Shown here piece after piece: positions 1,082 to 63,371 of a stretch of DNA of 63,371 nucleotides (within the stretch, counting starts at the first letter, position 1; each line of letters begins with the position of its first letter). The notes below the pieces were generated by a model. It was not told the DNA's origin. It did no database searches and saw only the letters and a list, made by a program, of their open reading frames with translations. A program made the translations under genes and the position numbers. Source of the DNA: Adhaeribacter rhizoryzae (lineage in GTDB: Bacteria; Bacteroidota; Bacteroidia; Cytophagales; Hymenobacteraceae); NCBI RefSeq assembly GCF_008629685.1, contig NZ_VWSF01000030.1, positions 1-63,371 of the forward strand. Direction: 5' to 3'.

Positions 1082-2506
1082 CTACCCTGCTTTAACTTTA
1101 AATTTCTTTTGCAACTCCTGAATAGAAGCTTTAAATTTTTTATCGGTATCTATTAAATCCGAAACGGTTTGCACCGAGTGAATTACTGTGCTATGGTCGC
1201 GGCCGCCAAAATGGTAACCAATAGATTTTAAAGAATGGCTCGTAAATTCTTTTGCAAAATACATGGCAACCTGCCGGGCCGTTACAATTTCTTTTTTCCG
1301 GGTTTTGGCTTTTAAAGAATCTACGGTTACTTCAAAATATTCGGCTACTGTTTTCTGAATAAAATCGAGGTTTACTTCGGCTTCCACATCTTCAATAATG
1401 TGTTTTAAAGCACCTTTTGCCAGTTCCAGATCAATTTCTTTCCGGTTCAGCAGCGATTGGGCCATGAGCGAGGTAAGTACGCCTTCCAGTTCCCGCATGT
1501 TGGTATCTACGGAATAGGCTAAATATTCTACTACGTTATCCGGAATATCAATGCCATCGGACTGCATTTTTTTCTGGATAATGGCCATCCGGGTTTCAAA
1601 ATCCGGACTTTGCAAATCGGCGGTTAAACCCCATTTAAACCGCGATAATAAGCGTTCTTCCAATCCTTTCAGGCTGCGCGGCGGCAAATCCGAAGTCATT
1701 ACGATTTGCTTACCGGCCTGGTGCAGGTGGTTGAAGATGTGGAAGAACATTTCCTGGGTTTTTTCTTTACCGCTCAGGAACTGCACATCATCAATAATTA
1801 AAATATCGACCAACAAATAAAAGTTGGCAAAATCCTGGATGGTATTGGTTTTTACCGATTCGATAAACTGGTTCGCGAATTTCTCCGACGAAACATACAA
1901 CACAAACTTTTCGGGGTTGTTGCTTTTAATGTGGTTGCCAATGGCTTGTACCAAATGCGTTTTTCCCAGCCCTACGCCTCCGTAAACCATTAAGGGGTTA
2001 AAAGAAGTAGTTCCGGGTTTATTGGCTACGGCATAACCAGCCGAACGGGCCAAACGGTTGCAATCACCTTCAATATAATTATCGAAATTATAAGACGCGT
2101 TCAGTTGGGAGTTCAGGAAGTTCCGGTCGATGCTTTTGGACTCAAACGGATTTTTTAAAAAGTGCTGCTCCGGCTGGTACGAATTGGCAATAGCCTGCGG
2201 TACTTTTTTAGTAGGAATATTTACCGTTTGGGGTTTATTAAAATTATCGCCCCGGTCAATAATAATCTGGTATTCCAGGCGACCTTCGCTGCCCAGCTCC
2301 TGGTAAATAACTTTTTTTAATAAACCAACATAATGTTCTTCCAGCCACTCGTAAAAAAACTGAGTTGGCACCTGTATCGTCAGTACATTATCTTTCAAAG
2401 CAAAAGGCACAATCGGTTCGAACCACGTTTTGTAGCTCTGCTCGCCGATGTTGTCTTTAATTACTTGCAGACAATTCCGCCATACTGTCGCACAGTCTTT
2501 TACCAT
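1082..2506 (-). CDS. dnaA: Chromosomal replication initiator protein DnaA
   Basis: DnaA binds origin boxes and melts DNA at oriC. Visible features are domain I (residues 1-90), a linker to about 130, an AAA+ domain with Walker A GGVGLGKTHL and Walker B ILIIDDVQF, and the C-terminal box-binding domain with the signature GGRDHSTVIHSV. Length (474 residues) is normal. I prefer the ATG at 2506 over the in-frame GTG at 2515 because AGGTGA lies 5 bases upstream of the ATG. dnaN is not adjacent and I found no cluster of DnaA boxes, so the origin is probably not in this window. The Rrf2 gene follows on the same strand. Confidence 0.97.
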   Translation of the reverse strand: MVKDCATVWRNCLQVIKDNIGEQSYKTWFEPIVPFALKDNVLTIQVPTQFFYEWLEEHYVGLLKKVIYQELGSEGRLEYQIIIDRGDNFNKPQTVNIPTKKVPQAIANSYQPEQHFLKNPFESKSIDRNFLNSQLNASYNFDNYIEGDCNRLARSAGYAVANKPGTTSFNPLMVYGGVGLGKTHLVQAIGNHIKSNNPEKFVLYVSSEKFANQFIESVKTNTIQDFANFYLLVDILIIDDVQFLSGKEKTQEMFFHIFNHLHQAGKQIVMTSDLPPRSLKGLEERLLSRFKWGLTADLQSPDFETRMAIIQKKMQSDGIDIPDNVVEYLAYSVDTNMRELEGVLTSLMAQSLLNRKEIDLELAKGALKHIIEDVEAEVNLDFIQKTVAEYFEVTVDSLKAKTRKKEIVTARQVAMYFAKEFTSHSLKSIGYHFGGRDHSTVIHSVQTVSDLIDTDKKFKASIQELQKKFKVKAG

Positions 2507-54303: not shown

Positions 54304-54308
54304 CACCA

Positions 54309-54419
54309 CTTATCAAGAAAGACCGAGGGATATGGCCCGCTGAAGTCTTAGCAACCCTGGCAAGCAGGGTGCTACTTCCATCCCGTAAACGGCGCACGGC
54401 CGTGGGAAAGATGAGATAA
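54309..54419 (+). ncRNA. SAM-I (S-box) riboswitch upstream of metH
   Basis: The RNA has the SAM-I layout: P1 strand CTTATCAAG, then GACCGAGGGA and GGCCCGCTGAAGTCT, the conserved GCAACCCTGGCAAGCAGGGTGC (P3 region), a P4 hairpin, and a closing GATGAGATAA. Position directly upstream of metH, and a promoter matching the start, support the call. Downstream, 54457-54465 (CTTGATAAG) is the exact complement of 54309-54317, so it can compete with P1. Confidence 0.93.
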
Positions 54420-58322: not shown

Positions 58323-59276
58323 ATGAAAGTAACCGAACATATAAAAAACGCGAGTAGTACTTTATTTTCTTTCGAAATATTGCCCCCGGTAAAAGGAACC
58401 AGCATCCAATCGATTTATGATGGCATCGACCCGCTGATGGAGTTTAAGCCGCCGTTTATAAACGTAACCTATCACCGCGAAGAATACGTGTTTAAAGAAC
58501 GCGGCAACGGTTTGCTGGAGAAAATATCCATCCGGAAGCGGCCGGGCACGGTAGGTATTTGTTCGGCGATTATGAATAAATATAAGGTTGATGCGGTACC
58601 ACACATTATTTGCGGTGGCTTTACGAAAGAAGAAACCGAAAACGCTCTCATCGACCTAAACTTCTTGGGTATTGATAATGTACTGGTGCTGCGCGGCGAT
58701 TCGATTAAAACCGAAGCAACGTTCCGGCCGCACCCCGATGGGCACGCCTACGCCTGCGATTTGCTGCAACACGTGGTAAGCATGAACCACGGCAAATACC
58801 TCGACGAAGATATTGCCAACCCGCTTCCAACTACCTTCTGCCCCGGTGTGGCGGGTTACCCCGAAAAACACGCTGAAGCGCCTAACCTGGCTACCGACCT
58901 GAAATATTTAAAAAAGAAGGTAGATATGGGTGCGGAATACATCATTACGCAAATGTTTTTCGACAACAAAAAATATTGCGATTTTGTAAAGGCTTGTCGC
59001 GAAATCGGGATTAATGTGCCCATTATTCCGGGCATTAAACCGCTTACCACTAAAAACCAATTAAAATTATTACCCAATTTATTCCACATCGATTTCCCGG
59101 ATGATTTGGTTGATGCTATCGAAGGAGCTCAAACGCCACAGGCGGTACGGCAGGTTGGTATTGAGTGGGCCATTCAGCAATCGAAAGAACTGATACAATT
59201 TGGCGTGCCCTGCCTGCACTTTTATACCATGAGTAAATCCGATGCGGTGGTACAGATTGCCAAAGCAGTTTTTTAA
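58323..59276 (+). CDS. metF: 5,10-methylenetetrahydrofolate reductase
   Basis: The 317-residue FAD TIM-barrel protein reduces methylene-THF to methyl-THF, the methyl donor of MetH. Motifs are FSFEILPPVKG, NVTYHREEY, ICGGFTKEETENALIDL, VLRGDS, CPGVAGYPEKHAEAPN and YIITQMFFD. Length is typical for MetF. It lies 104 bases after metH on the same strand, so the two steps may share control by the SAM riboswitch. A long hairpin follows. Confidence 0.97.
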   Translation: MKVTEHIKNASSTLFSFEILPPVKGTSIQSIYDGIDPLMEFKPPFINVTYHREEYVFKERGNGLLEKISIRKRPGTVGICSAIMNKYKVDAVPHIICGGFTKEETENALIDLNFLGIDNVLVLRGDSIKTEATFRPHPDGHAYACDLLQHVVSMNHGKYLDEDIANPLPTTFCPGVAGYPEKHAEAPNLATDLKYLKKKVDMGAEYIITQMFFDNKKYCDFVKACREIGINVPIIPGIKPLTTKNQLKLLPNLFHIDFPDDLVDAIEGAQTPQAVRQVGIEWAIQQSKELIQFGVPCLHFYTMSKSDAVVQIAKAVF

Positions 59277-59288
59277 ATAAATATTATT

Positions 59289-59341
59289 ACCTTTGCCTAA
59301 TCATTAGCGGGCTAATCGCTGTTGATTAGGCAAAGGTTATT
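59289..59341 (+). terminator. Long hairpin downstream of metF
   Basis: The arms ACCTTTGCCTAATCA (59289-59303) and TGATTAGGCAAAGGT (59323-59337) are perfect inverted 15-mers, followed by TATTTTAAT. It begins 13 bases after the metF stop and probably ends the metH-metF transcript. The octamer TACCTTTG (59288-59295) in the left arm also fits a -7 box, so an alternative reading is a promoter. Confidence 0.65.
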
Positions 59342-59438: not shown

Positions 59439-59482
59439 CCAGGCCCCGGCCACCATTATTGCCTTAGTAAACTTTTAATACA

Positions 59483-59581
59483 ATGAAAAAGAACAACGTG
59501 CAACCAGACTTAATCCGGCTTTCCCAAAAGGGTATCCCTGCCACCGGCCTGACTTCTGCTTGTTGTTGCTGTTGTCTTTAA
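59483..59581 (+). CDS. Leader peptide with C-terminal run of five cysteines
   Basis: An ATG frame of 32 codons starts MKKNNVQPDLIRLSQKG and ends with A, five Cys (residues 27-31), Leu and TAA. The Cys codons are TGT TGT TGC TGT TGT. The peptide sits in the 540-base gap between metF and the ferredoxin-NADP reductase gene, 235 bases before that start, and is followed by hairpins with alternative pairing. Poly-cysteine upstream frames that sense cysteine supply are known in mycobacteria. By analogy, ribosome stalling at the Cys run would change the RNA fold when cysteinyl-tRNA is scarce. The peptide itself need not be functional. Confidence 0.7.
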   Translation: MKKNNVQPDLIRLSQKGIPATGLTSACCCCCL

Positions 59582-59595
59582 TCTCCGCTGCCTTT

Positions 59596-59630
59596 GGGCA
59601 TTAGCTTCTTGCCCGAGGCTAAATTTTACA
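59596..59630 (+). promoter_or_regulatory. Mutually exclusive hairpins just after the leader peptide
   Basis: TTAGCTTC (59601-59608) pairs with GAGGCTAA (59615-59622), with one G-U pair and followed by ATTTTA, a weak terminator shape. GGGCA (59596-59600) pairs with TGCCC (59610-59614) across the same bases. Both cannot form together. They begin 15 bases after the leader stop codon, within reach of a ribosome stalled on the Cys codons. Confidence 0.55.
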
Positions 59631-59636
59631 AATTAA

Positions 59637-59762
59637 GTTTTACCTGTTATTGCTATACTCACCGGCTGCACCGGGGGTAAAATCCGTTTGTATATTTAGC
59701 TGCTTTGCGGCAATTGCTGCCCCAATTGGTAACATCTCCTGCTGTTTCTTTGTTTTACCTGT
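59637..59762 (+). promoter_or_regulatory. Distal part of the leader with repeated GTTTTACCTGT and a central complement
   Basis: GTTTTACCTGT occurs at 59637-59647 and 59752-59762. Between them, GGTAAAA (59676-59682) can pair with either copy, so two long-range stems exclude each other. A further CCTGTG/CACGGG stem lies at 59758-59779, about 38 bases before the reductase start. This is consistent with a switching RNA; no ligand domain is recognised. Confidence 0.5.
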
Positions 59763-59816
59763 GGGTTTAGCTCACGGGCTATTTCTATAAATTTTAATAT
59801 TAATATTTCTTAACAA

Positions 59817-60827
59817 ATGAATATTTTATCAACTGATATATGCATTATTGGAGCCGGACCGGTTGGTCTGTTTGCCGTTTTCGAAGCTGGTTTGTTAAAA
59901 ATGCGTTGCCACGTGGTAGATGCCCTGGCCCAGACCGGCGGCCAGCTTTCTGAAATTTATCCTAAAAAGCCGATTTACGATATTCCGGGCTACCCGGAGG
60001 TATTAGCCGGCGACCTGGTAAAAAACCTGGAAAAACAAATAGAACCCTTTAAGCCTACTTTCACGCTGGGCGAACGCGTAGAGCGCTTTACCCGCCTCGA
60101 CGATGGTTCTTTTATTGTGTATACCGTGGCCGGTACCGAAATTAGTTGTAAGATAATTGTGATTGCGGCCGGCTTGGGTTCTTTTGAGCCGCGCAAGCCA
60201 GCCATCGAGCACCTAGCGCTGTACGAAGGCAAAGGCGTTAATTACATGATTCTGGATCCGGAAAAATTCCGCGATCAGCGGGTGGTAATTGCCGGCGGCG
60301 GCGACTCCGCTTTGGACTGGACAATTTTCCTGGCGAATGTGGCCAAAGAAGTTACCTTGGTTCACCGGGGTACCACTTTCCGGGGTGTACCCGAATCGGC
60401 GGAAAAAGTACAGCACCTGGCTGAAGCCGGTAAAATTAAATTATTGCTAAAATCAAACGTAGTAGGCGTAAGCGGCGAAGACAAACTGGAAGCCGTAACC
60501 ATTTCGTTCAACAACGAAGAAGATATAATTCAGGAAACCGATTATTTTATTCCGCTGTTCGGGCTAACGCCAAAACTAGGCCCGCTGGAAGACTGGGATC
60601 TGGAATTGCAGGATGGCGCCATTGTGGTAAATACTTTTGATTATTCTACCAGTATTGAAGGTGTTTATGCTATTGGCGATATTAATACTTATCCGGGCAA
60701 ACTGAAGCTTATTTTGTGCGGCTTCCACGAAGCGGCCCTGATGGCCCAAAGTGCTTACAAATATATTTACCCGGACAAAAAATATACCCTCAAATATACT
60801 ACTGTAAACGGGGTACCAACTTTATAA
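59817..60827 (+). CDS. Ferredoxin-NADP+ reductase, thioredoxin-reductase-like type
   Basis: The protein has 336 residues. The FAD motif is IIGAGPVGLFAVFEAGLLKM and the NADPH motif is VVIAGGGDSALDW. It lacks the CxxC redox pair of thioredoxin reductase and has the C-terminal extension of type 2 FNRs (YuiO/YcgT-like). It would reduce the 2Fe-2S ferredoxin encoded 180 bases downstream with NADPH, for example for sulfite reduction or other ferredoxin-dependent steps. The leader with the Cys-run peptide precedes it. Confidence 0.93.
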   Translation: MNILSTDICIIGAGPVGLFAVFEAGLLKMRCHVVDALAQTGGQLSEIYPKKPIYDIPGYPEVLAGDLVKNLEKQIEPFKPTFTLGERVERFTRLDDGSFIVYTVAGTEISCKIIVIAAGLGSFEPRKPAIEHLALYEGKGVNYMILDPEKFRDQRVVIAGGGDSALDWTIFLANVAKEVTLVHRGTTFRGVPESAEKVQHLAEAGKIKLLLKSNVVGVSGEDKLEAVTISFNNEEDIIQETDYFIPLFGLTPKLGPLEDWDLELQDGAIVVNTFDYSTSIEGVYAIGDINTYPGKLKLILCGFHEAALMAQSAYKYIYPDKKYTLKYTTVNGVPTL

Positions 60828-61007: not shown

Positions 61008-61328
61008 ATGAATGATATAAAAATATATGTACAGGAGCCATCGGGTGATAATACGCCGGTGGATGCGCCTACCGATATGGGCCTGAGTTTGATGGAAGTT
61101 TTAAAAGCCAGCGGTTACCCGATTGCGGCTACCTGCGGCGGTATGGCTTTGTGCGCCACTTGCCACATAGAAGTACTCAGCGACCACGAACTGCCGGCCC
61201 CCTCCGATGATGAAGGATATATGCTGGATAGCCTGCCCGCCGTTACCGACAATAGCCGCTTATCGTGCCAGGTTAGGTTAACGCCCGAACTCGACGAATT
61301 GGTAATAAAACTCGGAGCCGGTGATTAA
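61008..61328 (+). CDS. 2Fe-2S ferredoxin (adrenodoxin type)
   Basis: The protein has 106 residues with cluster cysteines at 43, 49, 52 and 87, the C-x5-C-x2-C...C pattern of adrenodoxin/ISC-type ferredoxins (ATCGGMALCATCHIEVL, then LSCQVRL). It follows the reductase gene on the same strand and is the likely electron acceptor. A terminator follows. Which enzyme it serves cannot be told from the window. Confidence 0.93.
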   Translation: MNDIKIYVQEPSGDNTPVDAPTDMGLSLMEVLKASGYPIAATCGGMALCATCHIEVLSDHELPAPSDDEGYMLDSLPAVTDNSRLSCQVRLTPELDELVIKLGAGD

Positions 61329-63009: not shown

Positions 63010-63044
63010 CCTTCCCTAAATTAGGGCTACGATTAGGACACAAA
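63010..63044. repeat. Terminal inverted repeat of the right IS4-type element
   Basis: These 35 bases are the exact reverse complement of 174-208. The transposase stop codon (63033-63035) lies inside it. Outside 63010 the sequence differs from that beside the left copy, which supports an element boundary here. Confidence 0.75.
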
Positions 63045-63371
63045 TTTTTGGGCCAGGGTCCACCCGTGCAAGATATGCTGGAAGTAATTCCAACCGCGCA
63101 AAAGGGTAATCACCCCCGCCTGCTTTTCGTGGGGTTTCCACCCGCCTAATCGGGCTATTATCCAGTAGCACCATTGTAAAGAGTCTTGGGGGTAAGGATT
63201 CCGCTGCTTGGCTGTTTTTCCTTCATAACGTTTTTGTAAAGCCTGCAGACAAGCGACTTCTTGCCGGGTAAAGCTTTCTGCCAGCGGCACGGCTTCTTTC
63301 TGTTTAGAAGCCAGGTGCAAGAGCATTATCTTGCTAGCGGCAAACAAAGCCAGCAGCGTGAGTTGCACTAA
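63033..63371 (-). CDS. IS4-family transposase, C-terminal part, cut by the window edge
   Basis: The minus-strand frame is open from the right edge to the TAA at 63033 (112 residues seen). It ends with IARLGGWKPHEKQAGVITLL, RGWNYFQHILHGWTLAQ, very like the C-terminal end of IS4/Tn5-type transposases (IARLGG....PG...LW.GW..L). The GTG at 63368 is not the true start; the frame continues off the window. Together with the N-terminal fragment at 1-147 it describes two copies of one element in the same orientation. Confidence 0.85.
   Translation of the reverse strand, partial: LVQLTLLALFAASKIMLLHLASKQKEAVPLAESFTRQEVACLQALQKRYEGKTAKQRNPYPQDSLQWCYWIIARLGGWKPHEKQAGVITLLRGWNYFQHILHGWTLAQKFVS

Follow-up and report, generated by a model that had tools for sequence, protein, structure and literature searches.

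What is a reading frame that ends in five consecutive cysteine codons doing in the leader of a ferredoxin-NADP reductase gene? The window analysed here, 63,371 nucleotides making up a whole contig of the 6.5-Mb genome of Adhaeribacter rhizoryzae (Bacteroidota), contains such a frame within the 540 nt that separate metF from the reductase gene (FNR; Table 1). An earlier note on this DNA had described a 32-codon frame closing with five Cys codons, Leu and stop. The frame is there as described; it runs from an ATG to a TAA and its 32-residue product, MKKNNVQPDLIRLSQKGIPATGLTSACCCCCL, has the C-terminus SACCCCCL. Like known poly-Cys leaders, it is a small frame in which Cys codons cluster at the stop codon or close to it. 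We consider it quite probable, from sequence comparisons, that this ORF acts in cis as a leader-peptide switch through which the FNR-ferredoxin operon responds to cysteine.

Table 1. Coordinates of the features discussed in the text (window positions, except where a locus is named)
Feature	Position	Strand	Remarks
SAM-I riboswitch (RF00162)	54307-54417	+	65.6 bits; before metH; the window's only gathering-level match
metF	58323-59276	+	upstream of leader ORF
Strong inverted repeat 3′ of metF, likely metF terminator	59290-59336		from sequence; sub-threshold Rfam hairpin matches
Leader ORF	59483-59581	+	ATG...TGT TGT TGC TGT TGT CTT TAA; 32 codons
Conserved 5′ block of leader ORF, AACAACGTGCAA...TTAATCCGGCT	59492-59524	+	predicted partial pairing with Cys codons
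Five consecutive Cys codons	59561-59575	+	TGT TGT TGC TGT TGT; 1 codon before stop; proposed stall site
Element A, TTTTACC	59638-59644	+	pairs with B in predicted fold; TTTTAC kept in three orthologs
Element B, GGTAAAA	59676-59682	+	kept in orthologs; partner of A in predicted fold
Element C, TTTTACC	59753-59759	+	overlaps 5′ arm of terminator-like stem; complementary to B, A:B wins
Terminator-like stem CCTGTGGGTTTAGCTCACGGG	59758-59778	+	imperfect U-rich tail; 38 nt before FNR start
FNR (ferredoxin-NADP reductase), TrxR-like type without CxxC	59817-60827	+	solved relative 5ygq
2Fe-2S ferredoxin	61008-61328	+	PF00111 match
Tandem Cys leaders before sulfite reductase	L191, ~2680-2371	-	each with its own terminator-like hairpin
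SAM-I aptamer followed by Cys-leader ATG	metY loci L319-L337, L339-L346; L231-L234, L166, L169		32/33 cases

The claim that five cysteines in a row are unlikely by chance holds within the window: approximately 0.0005 such runs are expected in the 13,285 bases that lie outside ORFs of at least 150 amino acids (both strands), and only 1 of the 125 short ATG ORFs in this part, the one under study, has a run of at least four Cys codons. The whole genome gives 15 matches to the five-codon pattern, at 9 places, and only the FNR one and L046 were accepted as leaders; the run by itself thus proves little, and the argument is carried by conservation and position. Runs of four Cys codons yield 97 matches in the genome versus 24 for the reversed control pattern. 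These, all in loci that were read, represent 82 distinct runs, nine of which pass a leader filter and five of which were accepted. Loci of FNR, sulfite reductase and metY genes were examined with a strand-oriented filter (three Cys within six residues near the end), which was set after leaders had been seen; it misses two FNR leaders with two Cys codons (genomes G002 and G005) and several metY leaders.

The solved structure closest to the FNR protein is 5ygq, a ferredoxin--NADP reductase (E 3e-103), and no CxxC was found in the protein. A ferredoxin gene lies behind FNR in most of 80 named FNR loci. The metH-metF genes are probably not part of the leader-FNR unit, because metH has a SAM riboswitch of its own and a strong inverted repeat follows metF. 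Rfam matches over the latter hairpin (mir-3121 and another) were far below gathering scores and were set aside. At the right end of the window, a coding fragment (63033-63371, minus strand) differs very little from a portion of the ORF that precedes another poly-Cys leader (locus L272, below) and may be a transposase copy.

In the 80 named loci, metF sits beside FNR only in Adhaeribacter aerolatus and in the MAG Adhaeribacter sp. RYN_302, the genomes G001 and G007. The earlier note had staked its reading on the frame being kept where the gene order is kept, and both relatives do keep it, in place and without gaps. The Cys codons are identical at 15 of 15 nucleotides in the three species, third bases included (C-termini of the two relatives, SACCCCCL and KACCCCCC). 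Between the window and genome G007, identity is 75% over the ORF, 86% over its first 14 codons and 100% over the Cys codons, versus 44% in the 161 nt upstream of position 59450 and 56% in 59582-59720; further conserved pieces are 59721-59750 (72%) and the stem stretch 59751-59782 (81%). By this comparison the leader ORF stands out from its direct flanks, yet it is not the sole conserved piece. Its dN/dS is 0.51-0.55 (three pairs, 32 codons each) versus 0.02-0.04 for FNR, and constraint on the peptide outside the Cys codons appears weak. A role of the Cys-codon stretch as RNA is possible, since even their third bases are kept and they are predicted to pair with the start of the ORF.

In each of the seven same-genus genomes that have this FNR, a small leader ORF closes with 2-6 Cys codons, with 0-1 codons between them and the stop; the eighth genome, G004, has no FNR match at that level. 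The seven leaders fall into two groups that show no visible similarity to each other and differ in their gene neighbours. The four of the second group, MNNFWLLPLLHSAIHCCCS, MTDFSPTPFLTFKIICCS, MKNFLIISFLQTNNCCCCS and MLDFSPIPFLTFKIICCS, end approximately 170-180 nt before FNR genes whose products are 65-66% identical to that of the window, and no metF was seen within the 1.5 kb read upstream of these genes. Only the final Cys codons are visibly common to these peptides and the window's. Two of the seven leaders (G002 and G005) carry just two Cys codons and align with those of G003 and G006; in G006, a TAnnTTTG box, which we take to be a promoter motif, ends about 33 nt before the ORF.

The divergence of the peptides bears on the idea that the leader works through its product, which might be, for example, a small protein that binds metal or thiols and is made along with the redox pair. 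A tail of five cysteines could bind metal or react with thiols, and the three close species agree fairly well in the N-terminal half. However, the other four FNR leaders show no visible likeness besides the final Cys, the leaders of sulfite reductase, metY and cysH differ again, and the property common to them all is the presence of Cys codons upstream of sulfur genes. An acting peptide is in our view extremely improbable.

Outside the genus the leader was hardly seen: one doubtful match (L025) in 27 FNR loci of other genera, a set that leaves out the listed matches G024, G009, G040, G052, G046 and G048. In the 80 named loci, scanned for CCC near the end and at least four Cys, FNR leaders are confined to L081 and L082; matches in L097 and L102 were rejected, being located elsewhere or starting at a distant upstream TTG. 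Searched by homology, the three leader peptides returned only their own three copies at E 3e-21 or better; among the Cys-codon runs in those loci that were fetched for the further matches (E 0.003 to 1), none was taken for a leader. Sulfite reductase is present in 7/7 genomes with an FNR leader versus 3/27 of the others, that of L025 among these three (Fisher p 2e-5 with L025 counted as lacking a leader, phylogeny uncorrected); the FNR genes of those three show no clear leader.

These data also weigh on the view that the frame with the Cys run arose by chance or is not part of the FNR transcript. Of the distinct genomic runs of at least four Cys codons, 77 of 82 were not accepted as leaders, and the conserved segment 59721-59782 could hold an FNR promoter; its conservation leaves room for a separate promoter there, which would place the leader off the FNR transcript. 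Against this stand the occurrence of a leader at all seven FNR loci of the genus and the association with sulfur genes, and we judge a fortuitous or unconnected frame to be very unlikely.

In the genome of A. rhizoryzae itself, the five accepted leaders precede FNR-ferredoxin, a siroheme sulfite reductase, rhodanese-cysH, metY and a TonB-dependent receptor. At the cysH locus the leader lies before genes for a rhodanese and PAPS reductase (cysH), and an inositol-phosphatase-family gene upstream may be cysQ. Another leader precedes a Cys/Met-metabolism PLP enzyme (PF01053), presumably metY, the O-acetylhomoserine sulfhydrylase. The poly-Cys leader of the TonB-dependent receptor, MKKIVLNTHSDSCSAANSLTSCCCCYFA (L272, ~1198-1284, plus strand), was noted besides; the receptor serves perhaps for uptake of a sulfur compound. 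Four further runs listed by the genome scan, L035, L273, L278 and L297, were not accepted; L035 overlaps the start of a long ORF taken by eye for thiC.

The sulfite reductase gene is preceded by two leaders in tandem, MTLINLSSVLSNYNCQACCMCCMALA and MTSFLREDAMCCCCRNSAERLDDAFTF, with hairpins of -16.2 and -15.9 kcal/mol, the second having a poorer U tail; the terminator of the cysH leader reaches -21.8 kcal/mol. Tandem leaders precede sulfite reductase in 7/8 same-genus genomes. A CCMCC motif of these leaders is kept in G000, G001, G004 and G007. More widely, sulfite reductase was found in 19 of 59 relative genomes, with a Cys-rich leader recognised by reading in 13 of the 19 loci; the strand-oriented filter passes 14 (antisense control, 1/19), and L240, which passes it, was not accepted as a leader.

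The earlier note had suggested that the genes under control provide electrons, for instance for sulfite reduction, and the genome fits this proposal. The sulfite reductase with its two Cys leaders is of the siroheme type, and no match to the FAD domain of CysJ (PF00667) was found in the genome. The NCBIfam models closest to the enzyme are those of NirA-type and ferredoxin-nitrite reductases; models of NADPH- and ferredoxin-type sulfite reductases follow, and none of these matches reaches its cut-off. FNR and ferredoxin may therefore reasonably be proposed as the electron source of sulfite reductase.

We propose that, when Cys-tRNA is short, ribosomes would be held up at the Cys codons next to the stop, and that the stalled ribosome would let RNA polymerase (or a ribosome) go on into FNR-ferredoxin. 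With sufficient cysteine, the ribosome would terminate and leave, and expression would be attenuated in the 235-nt stretch before FNR. The two proteins would then pass electrons from NADPH to sulfite reductase, whose gene likewise lies behind Cys leaders. The stall could be turned into output through the weak intrinsic terminator at 59758-59778, through Rho-dependent termination as in tnaC, or through translation. A cysteine sensor at FNR is well supported; for the conversion of the stall into FNR output, these three routes are candidates.

One candidate for this step is attenuation of the trp type, with the stem at 59758-59778 as terminator and pairing of B with C (GGTAAAA/TTTTACC) as antiterminator. 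The stem is kept in 3/3 orthologs (-8.0 to -12.0 kcal/mol, with a poor U tract), as are elements A, B and C; in the second group, too, hairpins with T in the tail (-4.6 to -11.3 kcal/mol) lie 28-49 nt upstream of FNR, and the strong terminators of the sulfite reductase and cysH leaders lend further weight. Constrained folding argues the other way. A:B always wins over B:C, leaving the B:C antiterminator, proposed from sequence, unsupported; as soon as its 3′ arm exists, the stem forms with P 0.93-1.00 whatever the ribosome state, so that stalling makes no difference to it in the model, and no consistent antiterminator was found. The stems are weak, moreover, and the Cys codons lie approximately 180 nt upstream of the window's. 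In the second group, the helix GAAGGUC/GRCUUUC is paired in 96.4% of cells, with no two-sided change and shuffles doing equally well, hence no evidence of covariation. Control of FNR by this route seems to us possible and rather doubtful. As to the 'classic attenuator' of the earlier note, the position stands, and folding of the FNR locus gave no terminator switch that depends on stalling.

The sulfite reductase and cysH leaders, on the other hand, look like ribosome-mediated attenuators as far as their sequences go. Their Cys codons lie 7-13 codons ahead of the stop in the seven compared; a hairpin of -11 to -22 kcal/mol and T come next, and segments upstream of the terminators can pair with the 5′ arm, e.g., CAGAGAGGCTT with AAGCCTTTCTG, which also speaks for the trp type at FNR. 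Modelled ribosome positions gave a mixed result for this pairing. It is higher in the stalled state for the first leader of L227-L229 (0.74-0.84 versus 0.26-0.53 with the ribosome at the stop) and, in the model, for cysH (0.51 versus 0.23), equal in both states for the second leaders of L223, L224 and L227, and lower when stalled for both leaders of L226 and the second leaders of L228 and L229.

The other route keeps the same sensor and makes the output Rho-dependent, as in tnaC, or translational: the stalled ribosome would shield a Rho loading site or alter access to the FNR start. The place of the Cys run accords with this: 0-1 codons separate it from the stop in each of the 7 FNR leaders, versus 7-13 codons in six sulfite reductase leaders and one cysH leader. 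So does an excess of C over G in the region past the leader, clearest in the second FNR group, and so do actinobacterial Cys leaders with a run near the stop and no terminator, for which, in the part of the source available, Rho was suggested (PMC1262725). The C excess is modest, though, in the window's own leader (51 C, 43 G), and Rho sites are not reliably predictable from sequence. We give this mode of output close to an even chance. Whichever way the output works, a cysteine-responsive leader remains our preferred reading of the ORF.

At metY, the leader is combined with a second element. The gene was found at threshold in 29 of 39 genomes, and a Cys leader is present at 27 of these loci, of which 22 were recovered by the strand-oriented filter (antisense control, 0/29) and the rest by separate scans; L338 and L347 lack one, and in L340 another gene intervenes between leader and metY. 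The leader peptides of the sulfite reductase and metY relatives differ widely, the Cys run near the end being their constant part. Arg-Met often precedes the run (MRMCC, RMRMC, RMRLCCC), e.g., in the metY leaders of L327, L328, L333 and L346, and also in L171-L174 (below). A SAM-I riboswitch (RF00162) occurs in 27 of the 29 metY loci, and the two metY loci without an aptamer have no leader either. The aptamer was also found in 4/19 sulfite reductase loci, all in the genus that includes Pontibacter, in L166 (before cysH) and in L169. In 32 of 33 aptamer loci, the aptamer is followed at a distance of 6-19 nt, in most cases 7-9 nt, by the start codon of a Cys leader; in the exception, L326, the leader just fails the filter.

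This arrangement suggests that the riboswitch gates translation of the cysteine leader peptide at metY, and the composite resembles, from its layout, a device with two inputs. FNR is not involved: RF00162 was absent from the FNR leaders scanned, five of the seven (window and L077-L080, with G001 and G007 left out). Between the window's own aptamer and the start of metH there is no ATG, and no Cys leader is found there.

The earlier note had proposed looking in related genomes for short frames that end in Cys upstream of sulfur, ferredoxin or FNR genes, and such frames turned up in the genus, in the same genome and across the phylum. In 395 genomes of the phylum, the pattern (TGY)x5-TAA has 33 matches in 29 genomes, versus 16 for the reversed pattern; 11 are leader-like among the 30 loci read of the 33. 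Two precede cysS (one scanned, the other assigned by likeness), and others precede cysH, a sulfate-binding protein gene, a siroheme methyltransferase gene with a flavodoxin-domain gene, cysE followed by a gene taken for cysK by eye, and a gene for an ATP-grasp protein (by eye). Four, L171-L174, from four genomes of one genus in another family, precede a gene for a PhyH-family dioxygenase (one protein scanned), which is no known cysteine gene; that it has a role in sulfur metabolism would be a guess. L171 and L174 were counted as leaders by their likeness to L172 and L173, though they overlap an upstream extension of the downstream frame. These four leaders end in MRM plus 6-9 Cys. L210 and L211, antisense to long frames, were dropped. 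With one codon before the stop, (TGY)x5-NNN-TAA, there are 41 matches in 36 genomes, versus 4 for the control; in the 29 of these 41 that were read, plus L166, the sole new leader precedes a cysteine synthase gene. Altogether, 7 of the 12 leaders from the phylum scans precede recognised cysteine or sulfate genes.

To our knowledge, cysteine sensing in Bacteroidota is not established. We lean, with some reserve, towards an RNA-based cysteine regulon in this phylum, in which sulfate assimilation, Cys-tRNA synthetase and FNR-ferredoxin are controlled by dissimilar poly-Cys leaders instead of a single common regulator, and in which a SAM-I aptamer, 6-19 nt before the leader start at metY and some sulfite reductase and cysH genes, gates translation of the leader to form a two-input device for SAM and cysteine. 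Terminal Cys codons upstream of sulfur genes offer a simple handle by which the regulon could be listed by computer. Through its FNR-ferredoxin member, the supply of electrons would be tied to the demand for cysteine, and this member hints at which reductase feeds sulfite reductase; the metY composite would show a riboswitch acting on a leader peptide instead of on the gene itself.

The earlier note knew of no such switch in the phylum, and our literature search, which left out most subscription papers and all supplements, likewise found no description of a Cys leader in Bacteroidota. Within this phylum, leader-peptide attenuation has been inferred before amino-acid biosynthesis operons of Flavobacterium psychrophilum; the accessible part of that report names no cysteine, FNR or poly-Cys (PMC9723704). 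In Rhodobacterales, the uORFC-8-2 motif before cysS is a Cys-codon uORF with proposed attenuation; it differs, in the text available, in that its Cys codons are a tandem pair within a stem, usually codons 14 and 15, and that a terminator is present; of the leaders described here, those of sulfite reductase and cysH come closer to it than that of FNR (PMC8632094). The B12 riboswitches with uORFs at metE and ppe2 of M. tuberculosis resemble the metY leaders in pairing a riboswitch with a translated uORF; they respond to B12, not SAM, the accessible text names no Cys run, and they are unlike the FNR locus (PMC11260477).

Closer to the FNR leader are the candidate cys leaders of Actinobacteria, located upstream of cys operons and cbs, with Cys-codon runs near the stop as in the FNR leader and, according to the portion available, without conserved terminator hairpins and with a possible part for Rho; they belong to another phylum and to different genes (PMC1262725). 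The kind of leader described here is known from mycobacteria, whereas such a cysteine control system seems undescribed in Bacteroidota. The mycobacterial poly-Cys attenuators (Canestrari et al. 2020, doi 10.1111/mmi.14498, as related in PMC9094748, PMC9031893 and PMC13236596; earlier finding, PMC4633059) are, as far as these accounts go, likewise short ORFs with a cluster of Cys codons at the end, upstream of sulfur genes. Further marks of that type are a leaderless transcript whose start coincides with the ORF and a response of downstream expression to cysteine by way of the Cys codons. The FNR leader differs in belonging to another phylum, in preceding a ferredoxin reductase/ferredoxin pair and in being known from sequence alone; its location upstream of sulfur genes is indirect, whereas that of the leaders of sulfite reductase, cysH and metY in the same genome is direct.
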